Positions 6,053 through 16,072 of a stretch of 64,000 nt of DNA are shown here, one piece after another. The stretch covers positions 1,736,001 through 1,800,000 of the forward strand of contig NZ_LR215979.1 of the NCBI RefSeq assembly GCF_900683735.1, given 5' to 3'. The position numbers were made by a program, and so were the translations under genes. The notes below the pieces were generated by a model that ran no database searches, had not been told where the DNA came from, and was given only the letters and a program-made list of their open reading frames with translations. Numbering within the stretch: position 1 is the stretch's first letter; each line of letters starts with the position of its first letter. The DNA is from Fusobacterium ulcerans ATCC 49185. Its GTDB lineage: Bacteria > Fusobacteriota > Fusobacteriia > Fusobacteriales > Fusobacteriaceae.

Positions 6053-6847
6053 TTATTTCTTAACCATTCCTCTTTGAACCATTTCTTTTACAATATAAGT
6101 TGCAACATCATCAGCATATTTTCCTGGACCAAATCCTGCATCGTATCCTAATTCTTTTGCCAACTCATTAGTTATTCTAGCTCCTCCAGCTATTAAGATA
6201 ACTTTATCTCTCAATCCTTCAGCCTCTAGTAATTCAACTAAATTAGTTAAATTGTGAATATGAACATCTTTTTGAGTTACAGTTTGTGAAACTATCAAAG
6301 CATCAGCTTTTAATTCAATAGCTTTTTGGATAAACTCTTCATTAGTAACTTGACTTCCAAGATTGTATGCTTCTACTCCCTTATATCTTTCAAGTCCATA
6401 GTGTCCTGCATATCCTTTCATATTCATGATAGCATCTATTCCAACTGTATGAGCATCTGTTCCTGTACTTGCACCTATCATTACTACATTTCTTCCTATA
6501 TTTTCAGCAATATATTCTTCACATTCATGCATATCCATTGTATCTATTTCTAAAGCCTGTACTTTTATATTAGTATAGTCAACATTATATGATGTAGCTC
6601 CATATACTACATAAAATGAAAATTCTTTATCCAGTGCTTCTGAAAAAGCAACAGCTGGATCTATAAATCCCATTTTTTTAGCTAATTGTATAGCAGCTTC
6701 CACACCTTTTTCATTATTAGGTACTGGAAGAGTAAAGCTCATTTGAACTTTACCATCATTCATTGTATCTCCATATGGTCTTAACTGCGTAAGATCAAGT
6801 GTTTTATCAAATTCTTTTTTATCAGTAGAATATAAACCTCCAGACAT
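6053..6847 (-). CDS. kamE: Lysine 5,6-aminomutase, beta subunit (B12- and PLP-binding)
   Basis: 264 residues. With KamD it moves the terminal amino group of D-lysine or L-beta-lysine to the neighbouring carbon, using adenosylcobalamin and PLP; here the product is L-erythro-3,5-diaminohexanoate. The base-off cobalamin motif DxHxxG is DAHTVG at residues 131-136. Lys144 (IMNMK) falls exactly where the PLP lysine of the Clostridium sticklandii beta subunit is described. The later YNLGSQV and LIAGGARIT strands belong to the Rossmann cobalamin domain. The start codon overlaps the kamD stop (TAATG), which implies translational coupling. Last gene of the lysine operon. Confidence 0.96.
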   Translation of the reverse strand: MSGGLYSTDKKEFDKTLDLTQLRPYGDTMNDGKVQMSFTLPVPNNEKGVEAAIQLAKKMGFIDPAVAFSEALDKEFSFYVVYGATSYNVDYTNIKVQALEIDTMDMHECEEYIAENIGRNVVMIGASTGTDAHTVGIDAIMNMKGYAGHYGLERYKGVEAYNLGSQVTNEEFIQKAIELKADALIVSQTVTQKDVHIHNLTNLVELLEAEGLRDKVILIAGGARITNELAKELGYDAGFGPGKYADDVATYIVKEMVQRGMVKK

Positions 6848-8403
6848 TATCTATTACCTCCAAGCATTAATTCTATAAATGGATTAAAGTAACTAGAATC
6901 TTTTTCAAATACTCCAGCCAGTCCTTTTCCTCCATCTAATGGTCTTTTTATACCAGCAAAAATTCCACCTTCAAGAGTCTTGAATATTCCTATTCCTTCT
7001 ATAGTTTTTAATAGTTCAGCAGCTTTTTCAAGAACCTCTTTAGCCCTATTTACCATTATACCATCTTTTTTGAACTCAATATCATTACCAAAATCTTCCA
7101 TGTTATTAAAAATATATTTAGCATTTTCTATAGAAAGTGCTCTGTCTGACATAAATGGAGTATGGATAGCTTCTGTCAGCATTCCTAATAAATGTACCTT
7201 TTGATTAGTCATTATAGTTACCATATTAAATAAAGCATCTTGTACATGACCTTTAAAAATATTTCCTGTCATAAATTTTGTAGGTGGCATATATTTTAAT
7301 GGTGCTTTAGGGAATATCTCTCTAGCCATTTGAGCTTGAGCTAATTCAAGCAAGAATCCATTTTTAGTATCTGGATGCATTTCAAATGCATGACCTAACC
7401 CCATTTGTTCTTCTGGTAATCCAGCAACTAATGCAAATTGTTCATTGATGAATTGTGAAGCTAAAACTGTATGAGCTTCTTCAATAGCATCAGCTGTAGT
7501 TAAGTAGTTATCTTCTCCTGTATTAATTATAACTCCTGCAAATCCATTGATAACTCTTGAGAAGAATTGGTCAACTAAAGTTCTTTTCATATTTATATCT
7601 CTGAATAAGATTCCATATAATGCGTCATTCAGCATCATATCTAGTCTTTCAAGAGCTCCCATTGCAGCTATTTCAGGCATACAAAGTCCTGAACAGTAAT
7701 TACAAAGTCTTATATATCTTTTTAATTCTACTCCAACTTCATCAAGAGCTTTTCTCATAATTCTAAAGTTTTCCTGAGTAGCCATTGTTCCTCCGAACCC
7801 CTCAGTTGTAGCTCCATATGGAACATAATCCAATAAAGATTGTCCAGTAGTTCTGATAACGGCTATTACATCTGCACCTTGTCTAGCTGCAGCTACAGCT
7901 TGTGTAACGTCTTCATAGATATTTCCAGTAGCAACTATTACATAAATGTAAGGACCTTTCTTATCTCCATATACATTTAAATATTCTTCTCTTTTTGCTC
8001 TGTTAGATCTGATTCTCTCTACATTAGCCTCTGCAATCTCTTTAAGAGCTAATTTAATTTCAAAATCATCATGCCATTTCATTTTTGTAACATCTAATTC
8101 TTTTCTTGCAATTCTTTCTGCTATTTCTTGTGGTTTTAATCCAGTTTCAAGCATTGCATTTCCTAAATATTTCGCAACTCCAAGAGAAATATTTCCATTT
8201 TCTTTAATAAAATCTACCACCACATTTGGTAATGGTACTTCAAATTCATCAATACCATCTATTCCAAGTAATCTACATATTGTTCTTTCTACAGTAACAG
8301 TACTGTGTGCATCAACAAATACTTGTGCATCTGCAGCAATTTTTTTAGCTGACTTACGAGCTTCATCTACTAAATTCCAGTTAAGATTTAGTTTGCTATT
8401 CAT
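6847..8403 (-). CDS. kamD: Lysine 5,6-aminomutase, alpha subunit
   Basis: 518 residues, the usual length. This is the TIM-barrel catalytic subunit that pairs with KamE and holds the upper face of adenosylcobalamin. Recognisable segments are LNLNWNLVDEARKSAKKIA at the N-terminus, ATGNIYEDVTQAVAAARQGAD, RTTGQSLLDYVPYGATTEGFGGT (about residues 188-210) and HLLGMLTEAIHTPFMSDRAL. All are typical of the D-lysine/beta-lysine mutase family. Ribosome site AAGGAGG, 5 bp downstream of kamC. It acts in the cytoplasm directly after KamA makes beta-lysine. Confidence 0.96.
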   Translation of the reverse strand: MNSKLNLNWNLVDEARKSAKKIAADAQVFVDAHSTVTVERTICRLLGIDGIDEFEVPLPNVVVDFIKENGNISLGVAKYLGNAMLETGLKPQEIAERIARKELDVTKMKWHDDFEIKLALKEIAEANVERIRSNRAKREEYLNVYGDKKGPYIYVIVATGNIYEDVTQAVAAARQGADVIAVIRTTGQSLLDYVPYGATTEGFGGTMATQENFRIMRKALDEVGVELKRYIRLCNYCSGLCMPEIAAMGALERLDMMLNDALYGILFRDINMKRTLVDQFFSRVINGFAGVIINTGEDNYLTTADAIEEAHTVLASQFINEQFALVAGLPEEQMGLGHAFEMHPDTKNGFLLELAQAQMAREIFPKAPLKYMPPTKFMTGNIFKGHVQDALFNMVTIMTNQKVHLLGMLTEAIHTPFMSDRALSIENAKYIFNNMEDFGNDIEFKKDGIMVNRAKEVLEKAAELLKTIEGIGIFKTLEGGIFAGIKRPLDGGKGLAGVFEKDSSYFNPFIELMLGGNR

Positions 8404-8408
8404 CTCTT

Positions 8409-9872
8409 TTAATCCTCCTTAATATACTCTTCAAGTATTATTTCTGTAAATCTTTTATCTATTCCTATTAATTTTGCTATATTCAGAGCATCTTTTGGTA
8501 CTTCTGCCTTGTCCGCCTTTTCAAGTCTGAAGTCCATATATTCTTGAATAAGTTCCATAGAATTTTTGCTTAACTCTATTTTTCTCCTCAAGTTTTCAAA
8601 ATCTACATTTTTTAACCCTACTACTTGATAATGATTCATATCATCTCTTACTATTCCATCAAAATGTGTGGTCATAAGAGATATTGTAGGTCTATCATTT
8701 AAATATTTAGCTAAAGCTTCTACGAACTTTTGTCCCTCTTTTGGATTAGTTCCTCTAGCAAACTCATCAAAAACTACAAAGCCTGTTCCTAAATCTAAAA
8801 ATATATTTACTTCTTTAAGCTTCATTATTTCAGCTCCAAAAGTACTTAGACCCTTAGAGATATCCTGCATGTCATCTGATATAAAAAATACGAAATCTAC
8901 AAGTGGGAATTTTGCCTTTTCAGCTATAACGAAGAATCCCATATGGAAAAGTAAAAGGTTTTCAGTTATAGTTTTTAACGCAACACTTTTTCCTCCCATA
9001 TTTGCTCCTGTTATTATGGTAACTCCTGATCCTAATTTCACATCAATTGGAGTAAAAGTCTTGCTTTTAGCTTCTAACATTTCTCTCACTTCTATATTTA
9101 CCAGTCCAGTAACATCTACTTCATTATTCATAGATATCTCAGGTCTGATACCTCCATAAGTTCTTGCAAATCTGACCTTAGCCATTAAAAAATCTAGATT
9201 CCCTATTTTATCTATATTTTCTAAAAATCCCTCTGCTTTTTTTAACAAGATTGATGTAAGCTGTTTTCTCACTTTCAGCTCTTCTTTCTCTTCTTCTACA
9301 AGTATATCCAATCTCTCTTCTTTTAATTGAGATACTTCTTCAAAACTTTTTGCAGCGAATATTCTTTTTTCTACATCTTTTTTCTTATCTCTCACCATTT
9401 TAAGTTCAAGTGAGTAACTGTCATAAACATAAAAGGTAGGCAGTCTGTTTTTATCTGGATCTAGAGCGTCAATCATCTCTTCCATGCTTTCCAAATCAAA
9501 ATTTTTCAGTTCCCCTGGCAATTTTTTTAATAAAAGATTTAATTCTTCCATTAATAGTGCCTGTACCTTTATCTCAAAAAGATCTACATCATCCAATATA
9601 TTTTCTTTTAAGCAATTATTTACAACTGTTTTAATGTCCTTTAATCTGTGAATTATCCCTTCGATATCTCTTACCAGATTCTTATTTTCTTCTGAAAAAC
9701 TCATAAAAACTTCCATTTTTATAAATTCTTCTTTTAGAAGTTGCTCCTCTCCTCTTAAGTAGTTCTTTAACTTTTTCAGTTTAGCTTTACCATAAGGAGA
9801 AAGAGTTTCAACTCTTGTTAAAAGTTTTCTAAATCCTAATCTCTCAAGACTTTTATCATCTATAAATCTCAT
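8409..9872 (-). CDS. kamC: MutS-like ATPase KamC, putative lysine 5,6-aminomutase reactivase
   Basis: Looks like the ATPase half of MutS, with no mismatch-recognition domain: helical lever residues 1-240, Walker A GANMGGKS near 289-296, Walker B VVFDEF near 366-371, then ARGTNPKEGQ and the MutS-type LMTTHFDG. Homologues are always linked to lysine/ornithine aminomutase genes; from memory they are annotated as the ATPase of a reactivating factor that exchanges damaged cobalamin. I infer that role from the family name and position between kamB and kamD. I prefer ATG at 9872 over GTG at 9881, because the AGGTGAG site overlaps the GTG. It overlaps the kamB 3' end by 17 bp. Confidence 0.88.
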   Translation of the reverse strand: MRFIDDKSLERLGFRKLLTRVETLSPYGKAKLKKLKNYLRGEEQLLKEEFIKMEVFMSFSEENKNLVRDIEGIIHRLKDIKTVVNNCLKENILDDVDLFEIKVQALLMEELNLLLKKLPGELKNFDLESMEEMIDALDPDKNRLPTFYVYDSYSLELKMVRDKKKDVEKRIFAAKSFEEVSQLKEERLDILVEEEKEELKVRKQLTSILLKKAEGFLENIDKIGNLDFLMAKVRFARTYGGIRPEISMNNEVDVTGLVNIEVREMLEAKSKTFTPIDVKLGSGVTIITGANMGGKSVALKTITENLLLFHMGFFVIAEKAKFPLVDFVFFISDDMQDISKGLSTFGAEIMKLKEVNIFLDLGTGFVVFDEFARGTNPKEGQKFVEALAKYLNDRPTISLMTTHFDGIVRDDMNHYQVVGLKNVDFENLRRKIELSKNSMELIQEYMDFRLEKADKAEVPKDALNIAKLIGIDKRFTEIILEEYIKED

Positions 9873-10896
9873 TTCGCTCACCTACCACATCTATGACTTT
9901 ATATTTTATTTTTTCCTCTAAAAATTTCTTAAACTTATCCTTTGGAAATTCATATCCAAGAGGAGAACGTGGATTGCATGTTACAAAAAGAAGATTTATA
10001 GTATTCATGACCCTTAGCTCTACACCACTGACCTCTAATTTCTTTTGAGTTAAAAAATCTATGAAAACCTTTGTTCCATCTTTTGCTATCAATTTTATAT
10101 TTTTAAAATTACCTCTGTTTTTTATCAGAATCTCAATGAATTTCTTCGTAACAGCTCCCCTAACAGCTATCACTTGTATTCTGTCATTAAGGTAATTTTT
10201 TATCTCATCATTTGACTCAAGAGGTCCCATGCCTTCCAAAGTCTTTATCTCACCATCATTATATATTATTCCAACTCTAGCTTCTTGGAAAATTTCATTG
10301 ATTTTATCTTTTAGTTCATTATTCTCCAAACTAGGTAAAGTAAGAAGCGATACAGTATTAGCTGTTTCTTCAATAACTTTTCCCATATCGAGAGATAATG
10401 CTGCACCAGTTGCCAATATAGTAGCTTCTGTTACATCTCCTACTGCACTTCCTTTTCTGCTTAAAGCTCCATCTACTAAAGATAGTTCGCTCCCAAAATT
10501 TTCCATTATATCTAAAATTTTTTTTATTTGAGCATTATAAGAAGGACCTGCTATGTCTACATAACCTGCTGAAATTGCCCGCATTATTACAATATTCCCC
10601 ATAGGGGTTGAGAAATCTGTGGTATACAAAATTTCTCTTGTAATATCACAGTTTCTCAAACAATCTCTTGCAGTAGCTACTAATGTTCCTGGAAAAACAT
10701 ATATTCTAGGTTTATGAGTATTAGTCACAACATCTGTATCTTCTCCATCTCTTCCAATAGAAGTAAGACCAACTACTTTTTTTGTGCCTATATCCTCTAT
10801 TAATTGATTAAGAACAGTTGTTTTCCCTACATTTTTTTCCATTCCTATTATTGACACTCTTTTATAATCTCTTAGTAGATCATAAGTATCCATCAT
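9856..10896 (-). CDS. kamB: KamB, P-loop partner subunit of the aminomutase reactivase
   Basis: 346 residues. An N-terminal P-loop, GMEKNVGKTT (residues 18-27), is followed by VVGLTSIGRDGEDTD and, near 120-150, ISAGYVDIAGPSYNAQIK and LVDGALSRKGSA, which look like a SIMIBI-type nucleotide-binding fold. Homologues sit with kamC in lysine and ornithine aminomutase clusters and, from memory, are named as the second reactivase subunit. Its exact biochemistry is not something I can derive. Translational coupling with kamC by overlap argues for a stoichiometric complex. Ribosome site GAGGTAG. Confidence 0.85.
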   Translation of the reverse strand: MMDTYDLLRDYKRVSIIGMEKNVGKTTVLNQLIEDIGTKKVVGLTSIGRDGEDTDVVTNTHKPRIYVFPGTLVATARDCLRNCDITREILYTTDFSTPMGNIVIMRAISAGYVDIAGPSYNAQIKKILDIMENFGSELSLVDGALSRKGSAVGDVTEATILATGAALSLDMGKVIEETANTVSLLTLPSLENNELKDKINEIFQEARVGIIYNDGEIKTLEGMGPLESNDEIKNYLNDRIQVIAVRGAVTKKFIEILIKNRGNFKNIKLIAKDGTKVFIDFLTQKKLEVSGVELRVMNTINLLFVTCNPRSPLGYEFPKDKFKKFLEEKIKYKVIDVVGERNEIYR

Positions 10897-10915: not shown

Positions 10916-12163
10916 TTATTTTTCGTTTCTTTTATGTCTGTCAAGCTCTTTTGGTTCTATTGCCATAGCTCCACCACTAAGAAGTTTAGATACTCCAGTG
11001 TTTGTTCTGTGAGCTTTACAATCTTCACATTGACATTCTTCATGATATTCTTCTGGCTCAGTATAAGTAGTGATAACTCCTTCAAAGTTTCTCAATACAA
11101 CTTTATGTGGAGCTTGAGAGATTACATATTGAGGCATTACAGGAGTTTTTCCTCCACCACCAGGTGCATCAACTACGAATGTAGGTACTGCATATCCTGA
11201 TGTATGTCCTCTTAAACCTTCAATAATTTCAATTCCTTTAGAAACTGGAGTTCTGAAATGCTCTAATCCCATTGAAAGGTCACATTGATAAATATAGTAA
11301 GGTCTTACTCTCATTTTTACTAACTCATGAACTAATTTTTTCATTACATGTACACAGTCATTTATTCCTCTTAAAAGAACTGATTGATTTCCTAGAGGGA
11401 TTCCTGCGTTAGCTAGTAATTCACAAGCTTTTTTAGATTCTGGTGTTACTTCTTTTGGATGGTTGAAGTGTGTATTTAACCAGATTGGGTGGTATTTTTT
11501 CAACATTTCAACTAACTCTGGAGTTATTCTTTGAGGAAGAACAACTGGAGTTCTTGATCCAATTCTTACTATTTCAACGTGAGGGATAGCTCTTAATTTA
11601 CTGATGATATATTCTAAAGTTTCATCAGAAACTAATAAAGCGTCTCCTCCTGATAATAATACGTCTCTTACTTGTGGAGTTTTAGCTATATATTCAATAG
11701 CTTTGTCTATTCTGTCCATAGGCATTGCATCATCACTTGCTCCAGCAAATCTTCTACGAGTACAGTGTCTGCAATACATTGAGCACATATCAGTTATTAA
11801 TAGAAGTACTCTGTCTGGATATCTGTGAGTCAATCCAGGAACTGGAGAATCTTCATCTTCATGTAATGGGTCTAAAAGATCTGCTTCTGCTTGATGAATT
11901 TCTTTTATTGAAGGAATAGCTTGTTTTCTAACTGGACAGTTAGGGTCATTATTATCCATCAATGAGAAATAGTATGGAGTAACAGCCATTCTTAAAGTCT
12001 CAAGAGTCTTCTTAACTCCTTCCTCTTCCTCTGCACTCAAAGTGATATATTTTTTAAGGTCTTCTAAACTTTCTATTCTATTTTTTACTTGCCAATGCCA
12101 ATCGTTCCATTGCTCATCTGTTACATTTGGGAAAAACTTTGCTCTAGTGTTAACTGTGTTCAT
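10916..12163 (-). CDS. kamA: L-lysine 2,3-aminomutase (radical SAM, PLP)
   Basis: 415 residues. The first committed step of lysine fermentation: L-lysine to L-beta-lysine. The radical-SAM cysteines are in CSMYCRHC at residues 127-134. The PLP lysine lies in the glycine-rich DAPGGGGKTP near 339. A C-terminal cysteine motif, CQCEDC, matches the zinc site known in the clostridial enzyme. The N-terminus (WNDWHWQVKNRI) is family-typical. Ribosome site GAGGAG. It lies between kdd and kamB in the operon, separated from kamB by about 20 bp. Confidence 0.97.
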   Translation of the reverse strand: MNTVNTRAKFFPNVTDEQWNDWHWQVKNRIESLEDLKKYITLSAEEEEGVKKTLETLRMAVTPYYFSLMDNNDPNCPVRKQAIPSIKEIHQAEADLLDPLHEDEDSPVPGLTHRYPDRVLLLITDMCSMYCRHCTRRRFAGASDDAMPMDRIDKAIEYIAKTPQVRDVLLSGGDALLVSDETLEYIISKLRAIPHVEIVRIGSRTPVVLPQRITPELVEMLKKYHPIWLNTHFNHPKEVTPESKKACELLANAGIPLGNQSVLLRGINDCVHVMKKLVHELVKMRVRPYYIYQCDLSMGLEHFRTPVSKGIEIIEGLRGHTSGYAVPTFVVDAPGGGGKTPVMPQYVISQAPHKVVLRNFEGVITTYTEPEEYHEECQCEDCKAHRTNTGVSKLLSGGAMAIEPKELDRHKRNEK

Positions 12164-12226: not shown

Positions 12227-13264
12227 TTAAACATATAATTCGTTGAATATTTCTCTTAATACAGCACTTTCTCTCAATTCTTCTAAAGTGATTGCAGCAT
12301 GGTCTTTAGTGTATCCATTTCCTACGATCATAGTAACATCTTTTCCTACACCTTCAGCACCTAGTGCAGCTTTAGTGAATGAAGTTGCCATAGAGAAGAA
12401 GTAAGCTATTCCTAAATCTTTAACTGGTAAAATTGTTGACATTTCTGTATTTTGTACATTTACACAGTTGATAGCAATATCTACTTCTTTACCATCGTTA
12501 GCAGCTAATACAGCATTTAATACTTCGATTGGTTTTGTAGCGTCAGCAATAACTACTTTTATTTTGTCGCTTACTCTAGCTAATAGAGCAGCTTCTTTTT
12601 CATTTCTTACTAATCCAATTACAGTTCCAGTAGGTCCTACTCTTTTTACTGCTTCATAAGCACAAAGCATTCCTGATTTTCCAGCTGATCCAAGGATAAC
12701 AACTGATTGACAAGGTCTAGCTAATTTAGCAACTTGTGCAGGTGCTCCAGCTACATCTAAAGCTGCAAGAGCTAAAGTTTCAGGCATATCTTTTGGTAAT
12801 ACAGCATAAATTCCGCTTTCGAAAAGTATTGCTTTACCTTTGATTTCTACTCTATCAATATCTGGTTTTACATCAACAATTTCATCTATTCTTAATGGAG
12901 TAAGAGATAGAGAAACTAAAGTAGCTATTTTATCTCCAACTTTAAGATCAGTTTTTCCAACTAAATCGTCTCCAATTTTTTCGATAGTTCCAATAAGCAT
13001 TCCACCTGATCCAGTTACAGGGTTTTGCATTTTTCCTCTTTCACCAACAATTTCTTTTATTTTAGCTTTGATTTTTTCTACATCGTGTCCTGCTTCTTCT
13101 TCAATTTGAGTGAATGAAGCTGAGTCAACATTTAATGCCATTACATCTATTAATATCTCATTTGAGTATATGTTCATATCGTTATTTATTTTTAAAGCTG
13201 GTTGTGGTAAAACTCCTTGTGGTTCTATAACTCTGTGTGTTCCATATTTACATCCTTTTATCAT
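12227..13264 (-). CDS. kdd: L-erythro-3,5-diaminohexanoate dehydrogenase
   Basis: 345 residues. Oxidatively deaminates 3,5-diaminohexanoate to (S)-5-amino-3-oxohexanoate with NAD(P)+. It begins MIKGCKYGTHRVIEPQGVLP, the family-specific N-terminus. A quinone-oxidoreductase-like Rossmann core follows (VVILGSAGKSGMLCAYEAVKR near 187-207, then IGLVRNEKEAALL). It lies 50 bp downstream of kce with ribosome site AAGGAGGAG. Position between kce and kamA is as in other fusobacterial lysine clusters. Confidence 0.96.
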   Translation of the reverse strand: MIKGCKYGTHRVIEPQGVLPQPALKINNDMNIYSNEILIDVMALNVDSASFTQIEEEAGHDVEKIKAKIKEIVGERGKMQNPVTGSGGMLIGTIEKIGDDLVGKTDLKVGDKIATLVSLSLTPLRIDEIVDVKPDIDRVEIKGKAILFESGIYAVLPKDMPETLALAALDVAGAPAQVAKLARPCQSVVILGSAGKSGMLCAYEAVKRVGPTGTVIGLVRNEKEAALLARVSDKIKVVIADATKPIEVLNAVLAANDGKEVDIAINCVNVQNTEMSTILPVKDLGIAYFFSMATSFTKAALGAEGVGKDVTMIVGNGYTKDHAAITLEELRESAVLREIFNELYV

Positions 13265-13314: not shown

Positions 13315-14130
13315 TTATTTTTTTAATCCTAAAATTTCTCTGGCTTCATCAGGAGTAGCAATTTCTCTTCCTAATTCTTTAGCCAATCTTACAACTTTTT
13401 CTACAAGTTCTCCATTTGATTTAGCAAGTACACCTTTTTCAATATATACATTGTCTTCAAATCCAACTCTTACATGCCCTCCCATAGTGATAGCCATTGC
13501 TGCCATTGGAAATTCATGTCTTCCTATTCCAGCGACTGTCCATGTAGAACCCTCTGGAATACTTTCACTGATAAATACAAGGTCTCTTGCACTTGCTGCC
13601 ATTTGTACTCCTAAAACAAAGTCGAAATGCATAGGTTTTTTTATGAATCCTTGTTTTGCATATTTTATAGCATAATCTACCATTCCTTTGTCAAATACTT
13701 CAATTTCAGGTTTTACTCCTCTTTCAATCATTATTTTTCCAAAGTTTTTAATAGTGTTTTCTGTATTAGTGAAAACTTCATCTCCACCAAAATTACAAGT
13801 TCCACAATCTAGAGTTGCCATTTCTGGTCCTAATTCAGTAGGCTGTAATCTTTCAAGATCTGTCATTCCAACTGCTCCACCAGTAGATGGTTGGATTATT
13901 GCATCTGGACATTTTTCTCTTATTGCATCCATACATTGTTTGAATCTTTCTTTAGATTGAGTAGGAGTCCCATCATCTTCTCTTACATGTAAGTGAATTA
14001 TTGAAGCTCCTGCTTTGTATGCTCCATATGCTTCTCTTACTATTTCTTCTACAGTATAAGGAACTGCTGGATTTTGTTCTTTAGTTACTTCAGCTCCGCA
14101 TATAGCTGCTGTAATTATTAATTTTTCCAT
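13315..14130 (-). CDS. kce: 3-keto-5-aminohexanoate cleavage enzyme
   Basis: 271 residues. A metal-dependent TIM barrel of the BKACE family that condenses 5-amino-3-oxohexanoate with acetyl-CoA to give L-3-aminobutyryl-CoA and acetoacetate. Family signatures: KLIITAAICGAEVTKE at the start, GASIIHLHVREDDG (the H-x-H metal pair), QPSTGGA, and PEIEVFDKGM. I place the start at 14130 because GAAAGGAG is six bases from this ATG but directly abuts the upstream ATG at 14136. It is the second gene of the operon. Confidence 0.96.
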   Translation of the reverse strand: MEKLIITAAICGAEVTKEQNPAVPYTVEEIVREAYGAYKAGASIIHLHVREDDGTPTQSKERFKQCMDAIREKCPDAIIQPSTGGAVGMTDLERLQPTELGPEMATLDCGTCNFGGDEVFTNTENTIKNFGKIMIERGVKPEIEVFDKGMVDYAIKYAKQGFIKKPMHFDFVLGVQMAASARDLVFISESIPEGSTWTVAGIGRHEFPMAAMAITMGGHVRVGFEDNVYIEKGVLAKSNGELVEKVVRLAKELGREIATPDEAREILGLKK

Positions 14131-14162
14131 TTCCATCTCCTTTCAATTAAATCAAGTTATTT

Positions 14163-14546
14163 CTATTTTTTTCTTTGTTTGTCCTTAGGAGTTACACAAG
14201 TTCCGCTAGCTCTGCATACAACTATTGGCTCTGTTAAAACATCTGCTGCTGAATCATTGATATCTGGTCTAGGAACAATAACTTTTCTAGCTTCAAAAAC
14301 CATTTTTCTTGAACTGTTTCCAGAACTTACTATTTCACCAACAGCTTCTATAAAGTCTCCAGCAAATACAGGAGCCATAAATTCTACACTGTCATAAGCT
14401 TTAAATAATCCTTCATCTCCATCCATTTGGATTAAAAGTTCAGTAGCAACATCTCCAAATAATTGTAACATTCTAGCACCATCAACTAAGTTTCCTCCAT
14501 AGTGTGCATCATGAGAACTCATTCTTAATCTGATCATTGATTTCAT
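14163..14546 (-). CDS. kal: 3-aminobutyryl-CoA ammonia-lyase
   Basis: 127 residues, hot-dog fold. Removes ammonia from L-3-aminobutyryl-CoA to give crotonyl-CoA, which then feeds butyrate formation. Distinctive: [20 protein letters not shown] at the N-terminus and [20 protein letters not shown] in the middle. It is the first gene of the lysine operon and follows the lysine riboswitch by 114 bases, with ribosome site AGGAGG. The CoA-transferase and butyryl-CoA dehydrogenase steps are not encoded in this window. Confidence 0.95.
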
Positions 14547-14590
14547 AATTTTTTCCTCCTAATTCTTTAAATTCAAATTTTCAAAAAATT

Positions 14591-14603
14591 AAAAAAGATG
14601 CAT
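14591..14603 (-). promoter_or_regulatory. Possible expression-platform segment of the lysine riboswitch
   Basis: The transcript reads AUGCAUCUUUUUU here, followed by AAUUUUUU. Its first ten bases can pair with AGAGGUGCAU at the 5' side of the aptamer (14824-14815), including two G-U pairs. Formation of P1 with lysine would break that pairing. No classical local terminator hairpin is visible between the aptamer and kal. Confidence 0.4.
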
Positions 14604-14659
14604 GTGATAATAGACATAGTTAAACTGTAAGCAGATTTGATCTTGATTTTACTCAACCC

Positions 14660-14829
14660 AAAATAGCTCTCCACAATAAATGTGACAGTTGTTGCATATT
14701 CCTGCAACCCCCAAGAAAAAAAACCATAAGCAATCTTTTTCCTTTCGGCAACTACGTCCTTCGTATGAAGCATTGAGAGCTTTTTCTCTTAGCATCTCCA
14801 TACTACCTCCATAAATGCACCTCTATTTT
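14660..14829 (-). promoter_or_regulatory. Lysine riboswitch (L-box) aptamer upstream of the lysine-fermentation operon
   Basis: Read on the minus strand, AAAATAG at 14829-14823 and CTATTTT at 14666-14660 form a perfect P1. Inside, in the right order, are the conserved L-box blocks: GAGGTGC after P1, GGAGGTAGTA, a TAGTTGCCGAAAGG segment, GGGGGTTGCAGG with its partner ATATGCAAC (P4), AACTGTCA, and GTGGAGAGC just before the P1 3' strand. These align block for block with the Bacillus subtilis lysC and Thermotoga aptamers as I remember them. It controls kal through kamE, genes that consume lysine, so an activating response would make sense. A 66-codon frame here (14573-14773) is not a gene. Confidence 0.95.
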
Positions 14830-15149
14830 ATATATAAATATTCAATTGTCTTATACGCTTGCTATGTCATAGAATTCTTAGATAAGCAATATTTATGATA
14901 TATATGTATGCTTTTTCTAAAAATATAACACACTTCTTTCAATATAAGTATACTTTGACTTTTTTTAAAAGTCAATAGAAATTCTAAAATTTTTTTTTAT
15001 TTTTAAAATATTCTCTCTAACACTTATCAAAGTACCTGTATTTTCAATGTATCTCCATTTTTTAAAGGATTTTTAAACTTTATTTAGTATATTATAATAA
15101 TATTTTATTTTAGAATTAAGATTTTAATAAATTCAGGAGGGGAATTTTT

Positions 15150-15653
15150 ATGAATAATCAATTTATGAATGAATACTCTACTATATTTAAAGTAATTGAA
15201 AAAACTCCTCTATTCAGCGCTCTCAGCAAAGAAGAAATAAGAGAAATGCTTTCTTTAATGACTTTAAAAAATTATAAAAAAGGTGAAATTATTTTTGAAC
15301 AAGATAGTTCTCCTAATAATATTTATATAATTGAAAATGGAATAGTAAAACTTTTTCATAAAAAAGATGATATAGACTTTGACATTGGAACTTTTACTAC
15401 TGGAAATTGTTTTGGAGAAGTTGCTCTCATTGGTATTCTTCCCTATATAGGAACCGCTATTGCTATGTGTGAACTCTCAGTGCTGCAGTTCTCAAAGATA
15501 TCTTTACATAAGTTGTCTAAAACAAATATAATACTATTTAATAAATTTCTTTTTAATATATCTCGTGAAGTTTGCAGAAGGCTTTATACAATTGATAAAC
15601 AACTTGTTAATGCTCTTGAAGAAAATTCAAAACTTAATAATTCAATTTTATAA
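15150..15653 (+). CDS. Cyclic-nucleotide-binding-domain protein without a DNA-binding domain
   Basis: 167 residues. Residues 15-130 form a CRP/FNR-type cNMP-binding barrel: TPLFSALSKEEI, YKKGEIIFEQDSSPNNIYII and GTFTTGNCFGEVALIG. The long helix that dimerises CRP follows (ISREVCRRLYTIDKQLVNAL), and the protein then stops. The helix-turn-helix expected after it is absent. Ribosome site AGGAGGGG. It is divergent from the riboswitch-controlled lysine operon and 77 bp upstream of rubredoxin. It may be a sensor that works by protein contact, or a truncated FNR-type regulator; ligand unknown. Confidence 0.8.
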   Translation: MNNQFMNEYSTIFKVIEKTPLFSALSKEEIREMLSLMTLKNYKKGEIIFEQDSSPNNIYIIENGIVKLFHKKDDIDFDIGTFTTGNCFGEVALIGILPYIGTAIAMCELSVLQFSKISLHKLSKTNIILFNKFLFNISREVCRRLYTIDKQLVNALEENSKLNNSIL

Positions 15654-15689: not shown

Positions 15690-15730
15690 CCTTGTAGATG
15701 ATTTAGAAAAATTTATTGGAGGTTTTACTT

Positions 15731-16072
15731 ATGAAAAAATATATATGTGAAGTTTGTGGATATGTTTATGATCCTGCTATTGGAGATGTAGATCATGGTA
15801 TCAAAGCTGGAACTTCTTTTAGTGAGTTACCTGAAGACTGGACTTGCCCTCCTTGTGGTGCTGATAAACATGCTTTTGCTGAATTAAAAGGACATGACAC
15901 AAATGAAACTGAAAAATTTATATGTGAAGTTTGTGGATATGTTTATGATCCCGCTATTGGAGATGCTGATCATGGTATCAAAGCTGGAACTTCTTTCAAT
16001 GCTCTTCCTGAAGATTGGACTTGTCCTCCTTGCGGTGCTGATAAACATGCATTTAGAAAACTTGAATATTAA
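15731..16072 (+). CDS. Two-domain rubredoxin
   Basis: 113 residues made of two rubredoxin domains joined by a short acidic linker ([13 protein letters not shown]). Each has [14 protein letters not shown], then [27 protein letters not shown]. The four cysteines of each domain hold one iron, so the protein should carry two one-electron centres. In anaerobes such proteins feed electrons to oxygen- or peroxide-scavenging enzymes. The copies differ at only a handful of residues and are nearly identical in DNA. The ATG at 15731 follows GGAGG; the in-frame TTG at 15716 is less likely. Confidence 0.93.

Follow-up and report, generated by a model that had tools for sequence, protein, structure and literature searches.

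A predicted anti-aptamer strand that could make the lysine riboswitch of a Fusobacterium ulcerans lysine fermentation operon a transcriptional ON switch

Based on computed folds and comparative analyses, we suggest a model in which the lysine riboswitch in the leader of kal, the first gene of a lysine fermentation operon in Fusobacterium ulcerans ATCC 49185, is a transcriptional ON switch; we estimate the probability of this model at roughly 70%. The element is located on the reverse strand of the 64,000-nucleotide stretch of contig NZ_LR215979.1 analysed here (referred to as the window). In this model, a nascent strand of ~50 bases 3' of the aptamer, the anti-aptamer strand, would pair segment by segment with the aptamer during transcription, first with the P1 3' strand and J5/1, then with J4/5, then with J2/3 and the P2 3' strand, and finally with J1/2 and the start of the P2 5' strand. 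In the absence of lysine, the aptamer would be unzipped, the final long-range helix running into a U-tract would act as the terminator stem, and transcription would stop ~45 bases before kal. By contrast, bound lysine would lock the junction and P1, invasion would fail and the operon would be transcribed.

The identity of the aptamer is supported by a cmscan search of the window against all 4227 Rfam families, in which RF00168 (Lysine) is the sole match (14833-14656(-), 84.8 bits, E 9.1e-21); the match is full length (model positions 1-182 of 182) and scores above the gathering threshold of 30 bits. The original prediction had placed a lysine riboswitch at 14660-14829 and proposed a covariance-model scan as a check; the scan is significant, and the predicted range falls within the match. 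In this five-way junction aptamer (14656-14833(-)), the core blocks UAGAGGUGC, GCCGAA, ACUGUCA and GGAGAGCUA all agree with the RF00168 consensus, and the junction blocks AGAGGNGC, GCCGAA, ACUGUCA and GGAGNGCU, which are present in the window, are near-invariant in 18 kal leaders. Judged by its sequence, the element is a genuine lysine riboswitch, and we infer that it binds lysine.

The ~60 bases 3' of the aptamer hold, in antiparallel order, complements of J5/1, J4/5, P2-3'/J2/3 and J1/2, the last of which runs into the U-tract. Folding of the leader up to this U-tract gave a single nested structure in which the post-aptamer strand (14591-14640(-)) is paired with the aptamer core. Specifically, UUUGG (14662-14658) and GAGC (14669-14666) in P1 and J5/1 (14658-14669(-)) are predicted to pair with UCAAA and GCUU (14640-14629; mean probability (P) 0.95-0.97), the J4/5 core strand AACUGU (14685-14690(-)) with ACAGUU (14628-14623; 6 bp, mean P 0.84), GGACGUAGUUG in the P2 3' strand and J2/3 (14749-14759(-)) with UAACUAUGUCU (14622-14612; 11 bp, mean P 0.96), and AGAGGUGCA in J1/2 (14816-14824(-)) with UGCAUCUUU (14602-14594; P ~0.95-1.0 in the ligand-free fold), while the peripheral hairpins P2b, P3, P4 and P5 mostly persist as side branches. 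The U-tract that ends the anti-J1/2 segment (14591-14596(-)) is the putative termination point. With the leader cut at the U-tract, J1/2 is in the downstream helix with P ~1 and P1 is near 0, and this anti-aptamer fold is unchanged by the transcript start, including the predicted start site, or by folding at 30 or 37°C. In growing ligand-free transcripts, P1 is gone by +30, J4/5 and J2/3 are captured by +42, and J1/2 follows by +60, at the beginning of the U-tract; the order in which the invading segments appear is thus one that would unzip the junction starting at its 3' side. The ligand-free full-length fold is ~19 kcal/mol better than the aptamer with a free tail. The computed folds thus show two mutually exclusive predicted conformations of the kal leader and, together with the coevolution described below, they define an arrangement expected of a strand-exchange ON switch, i.e. 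a downstream strand that is able to displace aptamer helices, ends at a U-tract and excludes the bound fold.

A local intrinsic terminator 3' of the aptamer, the hallmark of the classical OFF design, was not found in the window leader. No terminator-like site was detected in window 14400-15300, and the best local structure before the kal U-tract in the window reaches only -1.6 kcal/mol; on these grounds, a local terminator before the U-tract was ruled out. Two further candidate platforms were rejected: a terminator formed from the P1 3' strand, as in Clostridia, was not found in the window, and sequestration of the Shine-Dalgarno (SD) sequence lacks a conserved anti-SD, with pairing that is inconsistent between species. 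These data bear on the possibility that the element is an ordinary OFF switch through which lysine represses the fermentation operon. Repression is the commonest logic in the family, and four paralogous riboswitches in the same genome look OFF, with local terminators. However, the kal leader offers no local terminator for lysine to promote, and the structure that ends at the U-tract is the one formed without lysine; moreover, it would make no metabolic sense for lysine to repress its own degradation, and such repression conflicts with the positive regulation proposed in the passages available to us of a published survey (PMC5584792). We therefore regard an OFF switch as very improbable. The original prediction had considered repression by lysine the wrong logic for this operon and had suggested activation; the predicted anatomy fits ON logic, unlike that of the four paralogs with their OFF layout.

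To evaluate the pairing statistically, only the downstream part was shuffled, with dinucleotides preserved and the U-tract held fixed. For the window, the energy gain from joining the downstream part to the aptamer is -19.2 kcal/mol (z -4.6). Across 19 kal leaders from six genera, the median gain is -19.0 kcal/mol (median z -4.6; total energy gives a similar result) and the local hairpin before the U-tract has a median of -4.1 kcal/mol, whereas 24 other fusobacterial lysine leaders combine a median gain of -2.7 kcal/mol (z +0.9) with strong local terminators (-14.2). As additional controls, 80 non-kal leaders preceding lysC, lysA, dapF, transporter and amidohydrolase genes were located by coordinates. 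A local terminator of -9 kcal/mol or stronger is present in 76 of them, and in none of the 80 does an anti-aptamer layout replace the local terminator at any U-tract. Overall, the layout is found in all 19 kal leaders that keep the platform and in 0/104 other fusobacterial lysine leaders.

Coevolution between the junction and the anti-aptamer strand was assessed in a swap test, in which aptamer and downstream strand were exchanged among six genera in every combination. Of the 720 possible assignments, the one that joins each aptamer to its own strand ranks first (p 0.0014), and the double-centred gains along the diagonal range from -4 to -9 kcal/mol. RNAalifold, run on a plain unrefined alignment, picks the helix between J1/2 and the pre-U-tract segment unprompted, with one column that is U-A in six sequences and A-U in six, and one J2/3 position covaries, being G-C in g1 and g4 and A-U in g11, g13 and g14 (genera are numbered g1, g2 and so on). 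These covarying columns reflect a small number of independent events, and the swap test carries more weight. The cross-species J1/2 duplex matrix by itself gives a modest signal because AGAGGUGC is nearly invariant, and pair counts on a MAFFT alignment were dropped since that alignment places g4 and g6 out of register. These comparisons show, at the level of sequence, that the junction and the anti-aptamer strand coevolved, and they indicate an architecture that is conserved and, within the set examined, tied exclusively to kal. All 19 kal aptamers also have an internal mismatch in P2a, while most other fusobacterial aptamers lack one; this is consistent with a helix meant for invasion.

Several points weigh against the proposed ON switch. 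The nearest-neighbour energies take neither the ligand nor tertiary contacts into account, and a terminator with its 5' arm ~220 bases upstream is unusual. The predicted ligand-free fold is so stable (~-19 kcal/mol) that lysine would have to act kinetically. The J1/2 helix of the window alone is not significant (shuffle fraction 0.10), so that significance comes from the whole strand and the comparison between leaders, and each kal U-tract was located partly via the duplex search, which introduces a mild circularity. Conservation is uneven as well: in g14, A-U and G-U pairs formed with the U-tract make up much of the J1/2 helix, and there are weak local hairpins (-4 to -9 kcal/mol); the J4/5 pairing is cut to 3 bp in g4 and g6 and is absent in g14; and g6 has no J2/3 helix. 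Because the ~19 kcal/mol advantage exceeds what ligand binding alone is likely to pay for, control is probably kinetic and exerted during transcription, i.e. lysine would have to bind while the polymerase crosses ~60 bases. From the folds, we infer termination at the U-tract, the direction of the lysine response and the ON logic.

The original prediction had also described eight lysine-consuming genes behind the riboswitch, and this description holds: all eight pass NCBIfam equivalog cut-offs. All on the reverse strand, they are kal (3-aminobutyryl-CoA ammonia lyase, 14163-14546, NF052388, 195.8 bits with a cut-off of 160), kce (3-keto-5-aminohexanoate cleavage enzyme, 13315-14136, NF052387), kdd (L-erythro-3,5-diaminohexanoate dehydrogenase, 12227-13264, NF052381), kamA (lysine 2,3-aminomutase, 10916-12163, TIGR03820), kamB and kamC (reactivase subunit, 9856-10896, NF052386, and reactivase ATPase, 8409-9881, NF052383, of lysine 5,6-aminomutase), and kamD and kamE (alpha, 6847-8403, NF052384, and beta, 6053-6847, NF052385, of the same aminomutase). 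By these family assignments, the operon encodes the complete anaerobic lysine fermentation (3,5-diaminohexanoate) pathway.

The ribosome-binding site of kal, AGGAGG (14555-14560(-)), is 30 bases past the U-tract and outside the anti-aptamer fold. Its position is relevant to the possibility that lysine turns the operon on via translation or mRNA decay, with the anti-aptamer fold altering ribosome access or RNase sensitivity. E. coli has translational and RNase E-linked lysine riboswitches, according to the passages of PMC5584792, and part of the start region is paired in the folds of the window and of one other leader (L048). However, an SD sequence ~30 bases past the U-tract takes no part in the anti-aptamer fold; in L039, L042, L046, L044 and L050 this SD sequence is mostly open, and the U-tract that closes the last helix in 19/19 leaders has no other evident role. 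Control of this kind is therefore unlikely, although less so than repression by lysine.

Upstream, a sigma-70-type promoter (TTGACT-17-TATACT, 14947-14975(-)) with 10/12 consensus matches gives a predicted start at ~14935-14940, and the same promoter sequence is present at equal distance in the other g1 leaders. A perfect inverted repeat, TTGACTTTT-AAA-AAAAGTCAA, covers the -35 hexamer and spacer of this promoter (window 14955-14975) and is found in 6/6 g1 leaders compared, with one base different in L041. The repeat is a possible operator, and a DNA-binding regulator may act besides the riboswitch. It could even be that such a regulator controls the operon from this repeat, with a degenerate, non-binding aptamer kept as leader structure. 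The conservation of the repeat over the -35 region and the lower aptamer score (84.8 bits, compared to 97-126 in the paralogs) point in this direction. Nevertheless, every core junction block is intact across six genera, the junction coevolved with its anti-strand, and the weak, mismatched P2a common to the 19 kal aptamers may partly explain the lower score; accordingly, we think there is little chance that the aptamer is degenerate. Divergently from the operon, window 15150-15653 encodes a 167-residue CRP-like protein whose match is limited to the cyclic-nucleotide-binding part (CRP 12-137) and which seems too short to hold a DNA-binding domain; window 15716-16072 encodes a 118-residue protein with two tandem rubredoxin domains.

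The genome (3.84 Mb, one contig) contains five lysine riboswitches. The four paralogs precede lysC, genes for an M20-type amidohydrolase and a YfcC-like antiporter, and a small membrane-protein operon; with local terminators of -10 to -17 kcal/mol and aptamer scores of 97-126 bits, they look like ordinary OFF switches. kal is present in 32 of 98 fusobacterial genomes, and a riboswitch lies directly upstream of it at 20/30 fetched fusobacterial loci (19 plus the window), so the arrangement is neither a chance event nor an assembly accident. At the other ten loci (L055-L064), which come from g2, g3 and a single g11 genome, no lysine riboswitch is nearby, and control of the pathway thus differs within the family. 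In the twentieth kal leader (L054, genome G056), the anti-aptamer strand is gone and the ribosome-binding site is within ~25 bases of the aptamer, a natural deletion. L053 (1-469, genome G057) has a near-perfect tandem duplication of the whole kal switch, from the aptamer through the anti-aptamer strand to the U-tract; because the contig ends within the first copy, the duplication may be an assembly artefact. Three lysine riboswitches before lysA-like genes (L015, L022, L149) have neither a strong local terminator nor an anti-aptamer strand and are possibly translational.

In a pattern scan of 80 kal loci from another genome collection, 28 kal-adjacent aptamers were found, 26 of them outside fusobacteria and mostly in Clostridia. 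Inspected by eye, eight clostridial leaders (L073, L079, L087, L090, L100, L113, L118, L133) appear to use the P1 3' strand as the 5' arm of the terminator, a simple ON layout, and most others have an anti-P1 hairpin and a separate terminator. In six Clostridium leaders (L071, L075, L078, L083, L088, L102), a UUUUCAUUGCAUUAAUAG segment is paired by the P1 3' strand but could otherwise bind GCACUGAAAA, the 5' arm of a separate terminator; by the same inspection, this layout would be a second ON type with an anti-antiterminator design.

If our model is correct, a single genome wires one aptamer class in two opposite ways, local-terminator OFF before lysC and transporter genes and anti-aptamer ON before lysine fermentation, which would resolve the paradox raised by the original prediction of a lysine riboswitch in front of genes that consume lysine. 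Because programs that search for local-hairpin terminators miss an anti-aptamer platform, other ON switches may hide in annotated riboswitch sets. For instance, in a whole-riboswitch covariation survey (PMC13273304), the lysine set was filtered by predicted terminators and 25-50 bases were kept 3' of the aptamer, and the kal leader would consequently be left out. The kal leader would also offer a clean natural model in which a strand is displaced step by step as transcription proceeds. The pathway has medical relevance, as fusobacterial lysine-to-butyrate fermentation is one of the functions that are elevated in periodontitis samples (PMC7160235).

The association of lysine riboswitches with kal and the expected ON logic are already known. 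In the passages available to us, the 2017 survey (PMC5584792) reports that a lysine riboswitch precedes kal in Fusobacterium nucleatum, kal-kce in Clostridium sticklandii and a pspF3-kal-kce operon in Thermoanaerobacter; these genes are described there as positively regulated, and the fusobacterial catabolic precedent mentioned in the original prediction is thus on record. In the literature consulted, in part as passages, we found no mechanism or experiment for fusobacterial kal riboswitches. To our knowledge, the anti-aptamer platform has not been described, although an earlier description in F. nucleatum is possible, as a 2003 analysis lies outside the literature covered. We give even odds to the platform being novel in the sense of a dedicated strand that re-pairs all core strands of the five-way junction in transcription order, forms a terminator from the 5' strand of the aptamer and is specific to the Fusobacteriaceae lysine fermentation operon.

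Compared to the OFF L box (RF00168; B. subtilis lysC and the four paralogs), the kal leader has the same aptamer and core blocks and a U-tract for transcriptional control. However, the OFF L box relies on a local terminator, and the P1 3' strand forms part of its antiterminator, while the window leader lacks a local terminator and its partner strand is predicted to engage all core strands, including the 5' one. The kal riboswitches of F. nucleatum, C. sticklandii and Thermoanaerobacter share the gene context and the proposed positive regulation, and that of F. nucleatum is probably the same element as in the window; the passages of PMC5584792 give no expression platform for them, and the clostridial kal leaders analysed here have P1-3'-strand or separate local terminators, unlike the window. 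ON logic is on record for certain lysine riboswitches, which bury pieces of terminator stems (PMC2258182). In the strand-exchange ON riboswitches ZTP pfl, adenine pbuE and glycine gcvT (PMC10907184, PMC2258182), the ligand likewise blocks invasion of the aptamer by the nascent strand. In those systems, invasion takes one helix and leads to a local hairpin, whereas in the window leader several junction strands would be re-paired in order and the terminator stem would use the 5'-most strand of the aptamer.
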